Origin: Hadesarchaea archaeon
GTDB lineage: Archaea; Hadarchaeota; Hadarchaeia; Hadarchaeales; Hadarchaeaceae
NCBI GenBank assembly: GCA_004375695.1
Contig: SOKQ01000031.1
Location: 1 to 33,943 of the forward strand
DNA: 33,943 nucleotides
Direction of reading: 5' to 3'
The notes under the pieces are model-generated. The model was not told the DNA's origin. It searched no databases and was given only the letters and a program-made list of their open reading frames with translations. Position 1 is the stretch's first letter, and each line of letters opens with the position of its first letter. Of this stretch, positions 24,712 to 28,673 are shown in pieces. The position numbers and the translations under genes are program-made.

Positions 24712-25542
24712 ATGGCAGGGGCGACTGAAATTATCAGTGACGTGTTTTCCACTTTTAGAACCATAAACATTTATAAAAAACTTAAATATTCCCGAAACAG
24801 TTATAAACAACTTAAAAATTTATATGAAAACACTTTTATATACTTATTTGGTCATGAAGTGAAGCGCTTCACTGCAATAAAAATTTTGGTTATTTTTGCA
24901 ATTTTAGGTATTTCGGCTGCTTTATTGTTCCAAGTGATTCCGGAGCAAGAACAAAACCCTGCTGACATGCCTGGTCTTCATCCCCCCACCTCTGGAGTAT
25001 CGGGCACTCCCATCACGCTTCAAGAGGCTAGGACCAAAGCCCCATTTCTCCTCGTGCCCACGTATTTGCCGGAGGGTCTCCCGCTGAGAAGGGTGACGGG
25101 GGATCGAGGACTTGTAAGCCTTCTTTGGGAGAATGATGATTTTTACGGTAGTGAATACGGTGAGATCAGCCTCCTTTACTCGGATCGACCAATAACCACC
25201 TCTCTGGTGAATAAATACCCGGCCGGACCGAAGCTAGCGGTAGGAGTAAACATAGTAATTGGCGAGATACCTGATGAAAATTGGGTTCGTGACTCCGTCG
25301 CTTATTGGAACCAACAAGAAGGTTCTGCTGGAAAGGATGTCTTCGAGGTCGTTGAGGTCCGAGGGACGGTGGGGATCGGCCGGGACCTCGGCCACGTGAA
25401 CAAGTTCGATGGATACGAGGAGCCCCTAGGCGCAAGCTTGACTTGGTGGGAAAACAACTTAAGGTTCGGAATCGGGGGCTGGCTCTCACTCAAAGAACTT
25501 CTCAAAATCGCTGAATCATTGGAACCTCTGGAGACATCTTAA
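24712..25542 (+). CDS. Single-TM membrane protein with DUF4367-like ectodomain, copy 1
   Basis: TM 'ILVIFAILGISAALLFQVI' and 'LQEARTKAPFLLVPTYLPEGLPLRRV....LKELLKIAESLEPL'; 82%-plus visible identity to copy 2 in the N-terminal part is obvious by eye, ectodomain more divergent. Confidence 0.75.
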   Translation: MAGATEIISDVFSTFRTINIYKKLKYSRNSYKQLKNLYENTFIYLFGHEVKRFTAIKILVIFAILGISAALLFQVIPEQEQNPADMPGLHPPTSGVSGTPITLQEARTKAPFLLVPTYLPEGLPLRRVTGDRGLVSLLWENDDFYGSEYGEISLLYSDRPITTSLVNKYPAGPKLAVGVNIVIGEIPDENWVRDSVAYWNQQEGSAGKDVFEVVEVRGTVGIGRDLGHVNKFDGYEEPLGASLTWWENNLRFGIGGWLSLKELLKIAESLEPLETS

Positions 25543-25946: not shown

Positions 25947-26789
25947 ATGGCAGGGGCGACTGAAATTATCAGTGACGTGTTTTCCACTTTTAGAACCATA
26001 AACATTTATAAAAAACTTAAATATTCCCGAAACAGTTATAAACAACTTAAAAATTTATATGAAAACACTTTTATATACTTATTTGGTCATGAAGTGAAGC
26101 GCTTCACTGCAATAAAAATTTTGGTTATTTTTGCAATTTTAGGTATTTCAACTGCTTTATTGCTCCAAGTGATTCCGGAGCAAGAACAAAACCCTGCTGA
26201 CATCGCTAGGCTCCCCCCCATTCATGAATCGGGCACTCCCATCACGCTTCAAGAGGCTAGGGCCAAAGCCCCATTTCTCCTCGTGCCCACGTATTTGCCG
26301 GAGGGTCTCTCGCTGAGAAGGGTGACAGGGTCTCGAGGGCTTATAAGCCTTCTTCAGGAGAATGATGATTTATATGGTAGTGAATATGGTATGATCCGCC
26401 TCCTTTACTCGGATCGACCAATAACCATACTCCCACTGGATCCCTCTGCGGTGAATAAATACCCGGCCGCAGCGAAGCTAGCGGTAATAGTAAACATAGA
26501 AATTGGCGAGGTACCTGATGAAAATTGGGTACGTGACTTCGTCGCTTATTGGAACCAACAAGAAGGTTCCGCTGGAAAGGATGTCTTCGAGGTCGTTGAG
26601 GTCCGAGGGACGGTGGGGATCGGCACGGACCTCGGCCACGTGAACAAGTTCAGCGATGGATACGAGGAGCCCGTACCCGCAACCGTGATTTGGTGGAAAA
26701 ACAACTTAAAGTTTGAAGTCAGGGGCATGCTCCCACTCAAAGAACTTCTTAAAATCGCTGAATCATTGGAACCTCTAGAGACATCTTAA
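25947..26789 (+). CDS. Single-TM membrane protein with DUF4367-like ectodomain, copy 2
   Basis: Paralogue of 24712..25542; first ~85 aa almost identical, ectodomain with substitutions and in-frame indels. Confidence 0.75.
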   Translation: MAGATEIISDVFSTFRTINIYKKLKYSRNSYKQLKNLYENTFIYLFGHEVKRFTAIKILVIFAILGISTALLLQVIPEQEQNPADIARLPPIHESGTPITLQEARAKAPFLLVPTYLPEGLSLRRVTGSRGLISLLQENDDLYGSEYGMIRLLYSDRPITILPLDPSAVNKYPAAAKLAVIVNIEIGEVPDENWVRDFVAYWNQQEGSAGKDVFEVVEVRGTVGIGTDLGHVNKFSDGYEEPVPATVIWWKNNLKFEVRGMLPLKELLKIAESLEPLETS

Positions 26790-27065: not shown

Positions 27066-28037
27066 CTAGCAAATTCTAGGTGCTGGGTCCCCGATTGGCG
27101 ACTCCAGCAGGCGCCGTCCGCCGACAACAGTTTCAAGCATAACGTCGCCGGGGTGGTCAGTTGTCGTTACTTCCCCTATCACACACGCTTCCTTCCCGTA
27201 CCTTGTTTTTCGAATTGCGGCGAGGACATCGTCACAGCGCCCGGATTCAACCCCGATTATGGCTTTTCCCTCGTTCGTTATCTGGAGCGGGTCTATGCCG
27301 AGCATCTCGCTCATCGATCTGACTGCGGGCAGGAGGGGGATATCGGCTTCTCTTACAAGTATCCCGACATTTGCCTTCGAGGCCATATCGTTGAGCGCGG
27401 CTGCCAAGCCTCCGCGAGTTGGGTCCTTCATCGCCGTTATTCCACCGACTTTTAGTGCGGTTTCGATAGTCCCCCAAATAGGCGCGATGTCCGAGCGGAG
27501 GTCGACATCGGCACCAATGCCCTCCCGGTGGGCCAAAATCGTAATGCCGTGGTCTCCGATGGTCCCCGTTGTAATGATTTTGTCTCCTGGCTTGAGTCCG
27601 TGGTCGGTCACCAAAGTTTCAGCCACGCCAATTCCCGTACTTGTAAGCACCACACCGTCGAGCGCGCCCCGTTCCATCACCTTTGTGTCACCGGTTATAA
27701 TTGGGACTTTCGCCTCTCTCGCGGTGGCGTCTATCGATCTACAAATTTTTCGGAAATCTTCAACCAAAAATCCCTCCTCAAGCACGATTGCACAGGCCAT
27801 CGCGAGCGGTCGAGCCCCCATCACCGCGAGGTCGTTGACGGTGCCTGCGATTGCGAGCCTGCCAATGTCCCCACCAGGGAAGAAAAGCGGCTTGATGGCG
27901 TGGGAATCGGTCGTCAGCACGAGGGTTTTATCACCAATCGATATCGTAGCGCCGTCGTCAAGCTCGTCAAGTCCTATTTCTCCCGCGCGCTTCAGTGAGA
28001 GCTCCTTGAGAGCGACGTCCACGATGAGTTTCATCAT
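27066..28037 (-). CDS. hypE: Hydrogenase maturation factor HypE (true N-terminus probably upstream, see findings)
   Basis: C-terminal PRIC; 'DSHAIKPLFFPGGDIGRLAIAGTVNDLAVMGARPLAM'. Confidence 0.95.
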   Translation of the reverse strand: MMKLIVDVALKELSLKRAGEIGLDELDDGATISIGDKTLVLTTDSHAIKPLFFPGGDIGRLAIAGTVNDLAVMGARPLAMACAIVLEEGFLVEDFRKICRSIDATAREAKVPIITGDTKVMERGALDGVVLTSTGIGVAETLVTDHGLKPGDKIITTGTIGDHGITILAHREGIGADVDLRSDIAPIWGTIETALKVGGITAMKDPTRGGLAAALNDMASKANVGILVREADIPLLPAVRSMSEMLGIDPLQITNEGKAIIGVESGRCDDVLAAIRKTRYGKEACVIGEVTTTDHPGDVMLETVVGGRRLLESPIGDPAPRIC

Positions 28038-28060
28038 CGCCTTGCCGCCAGCACCGTGGG

Positions 28061-28453
28061 CTAGCGAGATTTTTTCGTCCGACGTTTTTGCACCCCTTTC
28101 TTTTCCAGTTTTACATCAACGATTTCAAGTTCCTGACCCGAAGTGAGGGACAGTTCATGCCCGCCGCATTTTGGGCAGGGGATTCCTAGCTCGGGTTGGG
28201 GAATGTGGGTATCAATGGAGCTAGCGTTGCCCACGTATCCGCATTCACATTTAATCGTAATCGGCACTCGGGAGATGTTAAATTTTGTTAGGTTGAATTC
28301 ATCCCCCCCTAGTTTATTTAACCATAACTGCAGGGAGTTCGGCTCGTTTATCTCGCCCACCCGCAGGTTCACTTCCAGCACCCGCGCATCGTGCTCGGTC
28401 GCTATCCGACGGACGGCTTTTAACACACGCGTCGTGAGTTCGATTTCATGCAC
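28061..28453 (-). CDS. hypA: Hydrogenase nickel insertion protein HypA (GTG start)
   Basis: '(V)HEIELTTRVLKAV' plus zinc site CECGYVG...CPKCGGHELSLTSGQELEIVDVKL. Confidence 0.92.
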   Translation of the reverse strand: MHEIELTTRVLKAVRRIATEHDARVLEVNLRVGEINEPNSLQLWLNKLGGDEFNLTKFNISRVPITIKCECGYVGNASSIDTHIPQPELGIPCPKCGGHELSLTSGQELEIVDVKLEKKGVQKRRTKKSR

Positions 28454-28673
28454 CGCTTTCACCCGCAGCGACCTCTTCCCACGCGCTGAGTATCTCTTTT
28501 GCCTTTGTCTCGTCGAGAATCTGGATCGCATACCCGGCATGGACGAGCACGTAGTCGCCATTGCGTACGTTCCTGAGTAAGTCCAGCTTAACCTCCCGCC
28601 GCGTACCACCGAAGTCAACGGTCGCAATTTGCTCTTCAATTTTCAACACTTTACCTGGAATCGCGAGGCACAT
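28446..28673 (-). CDS. hypC: Hydrogenase assembly chaperone HypC
   Basis: 'MCLAIPGKVLKIEEQIATVDFGGTRREVKLDLLRNVRNGDYVLVHAGYAIQ'. Confidence 0.96.
   Translation of the reverse strand: MCLAIPGKVLKIEEQIATVDFGGTRREVKLDLLRNVRNGDYVLVHAGYAIQILDETKAKEILSAWEEVAAGESGA

Follow-up and report, generated by a model that had tools for sequence, protein, structure and literature searches.

The hypE gene described here is very probably translated from an ACG codon (28085-28083, minus strand), which would yield a protein beginning with MSDEKISLAHGAGG... The gene lies in a window of 33,943 nucleotides (the whole stretch of DNA that was analysed), which is an entire contig of an incomplete Hadarchaeal genome bin (629,636 bases, 67% complete). 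We read the ACG as the start codon because it stands in the start column of the family, where ATG, GTG or ACG is found, because coding constraint begins there and because a clade has retained the ACG. Archaeal starts are taken as AUG, GUG or UUG, and gene callers enforce this set. If the reading is true, a middle-base mismatch is tolerated, and apparently kept, at an archaeal start placed by a Shine-Dalgarno (SD) sequence, and a property in which archaeal start selection resembles that of eukaryotes becomes directly testable by reporter.

Identity and reading frame of hypE

The gene is a real, full-length hypE. Its product matches the TIGR02124 (HypE) profile with 388.3 bits against a cut-off of 251.6, residues 5-339 spanning the whole profile (1-332), and the HypE chain of PDB 2z1e with 390 bits. 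The N-terminal HGAGG motif is present, as is the PRIC cysteine at the C-terminus (...DPAPRIC), and it is the full-length profile match together with the match to 2z1e and this cysteine that makes HGAGG part of the protein. The motif (28058-28044) sits 5' of the first canonical ATG of the frame (28037), and in the window sequence no ATG, GTG or TTG is found in the hypE frame between the upstream TGA (28118-28116) and this ATG. The earlier note had described such a gene, without a canonical start for its HGAGG N-terminus, and had placed the ACG (28085-28083), a run of six A (28075-28070) and the ATG (28037) correctly; the GGGGTG that it reported five nucleotides upstream of the ACG is likewise there, at 28096-28091. 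After the TGA the frame reads TGT AAA ACT GGA AAA GAA AGG GGT GCA AAA ACG, and from the ACG onwards ACG TCG GAC GAA AAA ATC (28070-28068) TCG CTA GCC CAC GGT GCT GGC GGC AAG GCG ATG (28037-28035). The arrangement is more than chance, as it recurs in ten related genes. The features of the locus are:

27066..28085, minus strand: hypE coding sequence, 339 codons counted from the ACG, then TAG; TIGR02124, PDB 2z1e, Pfam AIRS and AIRS_C
28083..28085, minus strand: putative ACG start codon of hypE, in the start column of Hadarchaeal hypE homologues; conservation begins at -2/-1
28091..28096, minus strand: Shine-Dalgarno-like GGGGTG, five bases 5' of the ACG
28116..28118, minus strand: in-frame TGA upstream of hypE, from reading of the frame
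28044..28058, minus strand: HGAGG motif, hypE codons 10-14, conserved in the relatives read
28035..28037, minus strand: first canonical ATG of the hypE frame, codon 17, the earliest ATG, GTG or TTG open to gene callers; would remove HGAGG
28068..28070, minus strand: ATC, rival near-cognate start, codon 6, 20 bases from the SD-like sequence; conserved codons 2-5 precede it
28070..28075, minus strand: A6 run, proposed slippery site, coding in both frames and not conserved
28061..28453, minus strand: hypA, GTG start and TAG stop, overlapping hypE by 25 bases in a different frame
28446..28673, minus strand: hypC, TIGR00074, 96.6 bits

A caller that accepts nothing but ATG, GTG and TTG has to place the start of the window HypE at codon 17 and loses HGAGG, and further genes started with ACG would escape it likewise. 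The ATG at 28037 was rejected as the start: it drops the conserved motif and fails the conservation and spacing tests. The assignment of hypA comes from Pfam (HypA, 59.9 bits), while matches to the NCBIfam models for HypA stay under the respective cut-offs. The overlap of hypC and hypA is 8 bases long (28446-28453, GTGCATGA) and of a type associated with termination-reinitiation, unlike the 25-base overlap of hypA and hypE. Near hypE, the plus strand of the window holds two adjacent, near-identical ORFs (24712-25542 and 25947-26789; 276 and 280 aa; MAGATEIISDVFSTFRTINIYKKLKYSRNSYKQ...), apparently a recent tandem duplication.

The start column in related genes

In a sample of 28 genomes from the Hadarchaeal phylum, the column homologous to 28085-28083 holds ACG in 11 hypE genes, the window included (G000, G004, G007, G003, G002, G014a, G014b, G001, G006, G011 and G016), and these come in part from independent assemblies (SF_Bin37 and the CSMAG and RS_16_21 series). 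Four genes carry ATG in the same column (G005, G012, G010 and G009) and one carries GTG (G017), whereas in G015, G019 and G020 an ATG lies one or two codons off the column. This comparative evidence supports initiation at the ACG, which the earlier note had listed as one of its options. The note had also held that relatives with a normal start at this position would refute its finding; the very close relative G005 (DG-33) does have ATG at exactly this codon, and the finding nevertheless stands, since the ATG of G005 and the ACG conserved elsewhere together mark the column as that of the start codon. In all of the approximately 35 HypE loci read from other groups, the motif was preceded by a canonical start. 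Nine of the 11 ACG genes, among them that of the window, offer no such start after the in-frame stop and before HGAGG; in the other two, G014b and G016, ATG or GTG codons of the same frame occur upstream of the ACG, and both genes therefore carry limited weight. A non-canonical start further upstream was rejected, as in G007 and G003 the single codon AAA is all that lies between a TAA stop and the ACG. Both hypE genes of the G014 bin (L117 and L137; contigs C24 and C3) have the ACG; they are diverged from each other and reflect either two operons or a mixed bin.

The pattern of substitutions suggests that translation of HypE begins at this codon. When the 11 ACG genes were aligned, with +0 as the A of ACG, bases -24 to -3 were variable and bases -2 to +4 invariant, and past +4 the variation fell mainly at +5, +8 and +11, which are the third positions of hypE codons 2-4. 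Counted by codon position, there were 1/1/4 substitutions in codons 2-5 compared to 11/11/11 in the eight codons before the ACG. It is the hypE frame that is constrained here, because the bases that vary as third positions of hypE codons are the second positions of codons in the overlapping hypA. Among the 79 invariant codons that are four-fold degenerate in nine ACG genes, a single codon was kept in only two, and all 13 of the invariant threonine codons vary in these nine genes while the ACG of the start column never does. In seven of these nine genes, however, the third base of the ACG doubles as the middle base of an arginine codon of HypA, and part of the conservation of the ACG could thus stem from hypA in the overlapping genes.

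Recent copying does not account for the shared codon, because nucleotide identity within the ACG set falls far: among the ACG genes measured, identity of hypE to the window ranged from 95% to 65% (the latter between G000 and G016). One clade of the HypE tree holds all the ACG genes, as 11 of its 13 rows; only its other two members, G005 and G020, have ATG. The support of this clade is modest (83/83). As the simplest reading of these sequences, a single change from ATG to ACG would have been followed by retention and by two returns to ATG.

Other readings of the locus

Several other explanations can be given for a hypE gene of this kind. Initiation at the near-cognate ATC of codon 6 would give a protein beginning MSLAHGAGG, so that the region before it would not be HypE. 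In favour of the ATC, table 11 lists it among the starts, it does not vary among the ACG genes, and the motif would be left intact. However, codons 2-5 change with a third-position bias in the hypE frame, sister genes with ATG or GTG at codon 1 keep isoleucine at codon 6 even as ATT or ATA, and the SD-like sequence would be 20 bases away. We thus find initiation at the ATC unlikely.

It is very unlikely that the ACG is turned into AUG by C-to-U editing of archaeal mRNA or is used by an initiation machinery of altered specificity; one gene throughout an archaeal clade would then depend on recoding of a kind that prokaryotes are not known to have. Editing ahead of translation, for which plastid ndhD and rpl2 are examples, would take one C-to-U step, and relatives have a genomic ATG at the same codon, but it would call for an editing site dedicated to a single gene. 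To our knowledge there is no C-to-U editing of mRNA in archaea, nor was any found in the literature searched. Plastids edit ACG to AUG in ndhD, rpl2 and psbL (PMC9845219), and hypE resembles these genes in having a genomic ACG at the start codon and ATG in relatives; the plastid codons are edited, whereas editing of the hypE codon is hypothetical. Taken by itself, editing appears to have a remote chance of being the explanation.

A programmed -1 frameshift on the A6 run, by which ribosomes would pass from hypA into hypE and make a HypA-HypE fusion, seems to be about as improbable as editing. This was another option of the earlier note, and in the window the relative frames of the two overlapping genes would permit it, the run lying inside the overlap. 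Nevertheless, as a general mechanism it finds no support, for the run is broken in three relatives, which have GAGAAAATC (G003, G002) or GAGAGAATC (G016) in its place, and the heptamer in the hypA frame, G AAA AAA, does not allow full re-pairing in the P site as the classical X XXY YYZ would. Furthermore, hypA ends one base before the ACG in G014b, hypA is absent in G016, where the only gene upstream is a divergent PHP gene, and G005 and G012 carry ATG at the ACG column. In G016, hypE (L123) directly adjoins this PHP gene and has neither hypA nor hypC upstream.

A sequencing or assembly error at 28083-28085, the last option of the earlier note, could be suspected from the incomplete metagenome bin and from the ATG of a very close relative, but several sequencing projects yielded the same ACG, in ten further hypE genes (95%-65% nucleotide identity to the window in those measured), and an error is for practical purposes excluded.

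Proposed initiation at ACG and comparison with known systems

With initiation at the ACG, the N-terminal peptide of HypE would be (M)SDEKISLAHGAGGK. The SD-like sequence just upstream would place the 30S subunit, and the ordinary initiator Met-tRNA (anticodon CAU) would pair with the ACG by two standard pairs and a middle C-A mismatch, resembling initiation at ACG in eukaryotes. Direct reading by this tRNA is the most economical mechanism, because an SD-like sequence and aIF1 are present and three of the ACG-carrying genomes have a CAU initiator tRNA. HypE would then probably be made at a low and perhaps set rate, which would suit an enzyme needed in small amounts. The overlap with hypA, found in most members although not in all, may supply ribosomes from hypA, and it may also have favoured the ACG, as ATG would force cysteine instead of arginine in the HypA tail; in G005, which has ATG, this tail reads ...RECRTKKSR. 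The overlap is not required, however, as can be seen from G016 and G014b.

Against an assumed archaeal anti-SD sequence, not one taken from 16S, the SD-like duplex of the window reaches -8.7 kcal/mol, with 27% of the genes in its genome stronger and approximately 73% weaker. Duplexes among the ACG genes range, with the same assumption, from -3.8 to -11.9 kcal/mol with normal spacing in most, that of G014a being weak at -3.8. Loss of the fidelity factor aIF1 was rejected as a cause, as its gene is present in 27 of the 28 genomes. An initiator-type tRNA with the anticodon CAU occurs in three of the ACG-carrying genomes (G001, G006 and G014); none was recognised in the incomplete (67% complete) bin of the window. 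A second initiator tRNA with the anticodon CGU was considered, and its pattern, GGGCTCGTAACCC, was matched in three genomes, but none of the matches is a tRNA. The initiator tRNA gene around GGGCTCATAACCC apparently contains one to three introns, located in the D arm and T loop, in G014, G012, G001 and G006 (L279, L280, L281 and L282), and it is uninterrupted in G015, G019 and G027; ARAGORN misses the gene of G001. A hairpin over the ACG that pairs to the Val-Asp-Val codons of HypA in several members was not taken as a feature, as it seems to be weak in the G007 group and missing from G016.

In its SD-like sequence at normal spacing, in the aIF1 gene and in the CAU initiator tRNA of three ACG-carrying genomes, hypE resembles canonical SD-led initiation in archaea, and its ACG shares the start column with ATG and GTG relatives. 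Rare near-cognate starts are known in bacteria, such as the AUU of infC and of pcnB. The ACG of hypE is similarly conserved and non-canonical and looks gene-specific, and hypE, too, is a gene for which a low dose is probably enough, but AUU alters the third base of AUG whereas ACG alters the middle one. Yeast ALA1 and the VP2 of AAV are initiated at ACG in eukaryotes, where the system is of the eIF1/eIF2 type and partly common to archaea. As proposed for hypE, methionine is placed at the ACG by a CAU initiator in these cases and in the movement ORF of poleroviruses and luteoviruses (literature on which includes PMC4422679). The eukaryotic cases differ in that the product is an additional or second one, or a small protein, whereas in hypE a whole metabolic enzyme would have the ACG as its sole start, with an SD-like sequence before it. 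In an E. coli reporter, ACG is a weak start, within a group giving 0.1-1.5% of ATG (PMC6925171).

The ACG also lies outside the AUG, GUG and UUG that reviews of archaeal initiation name as starts (PMC7531240) and outside the NCBI table-11 start list. Across 36 prokaryotic groups, switches from 61,358 ancestral AUG starts led to GUG, UUG, CUG and AUU and not to ACG (PMC5622118), although annotations would hide switches to ACG in surveys of this kind. The literature on an 'ACG initiation codon' concerns, judged by titles, eukaryotic viruses, plastids, mitochondria and eukaryotic genes, and no natural archaeal or bacterial ACG start was found in the literature searched, of which coverage was partial. 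A hypE started with ACG would therefore be a new form of near-cognate initiation, for which the comparative support is good. The ACG start looks gene-specific and not common in the lineage, as far as can be judged from a scan that could miss other cases: with 413 pairs of orthologues from G000 and G001 (simulated sensitivity 130/287, approximately 45%) it flagged seven ORFs, and hypE was the sole convincing case. On inspection, the other flagged ORFs appear to be either shadows of genes on the opposite strand or genes whose normal start is correctly positioned.
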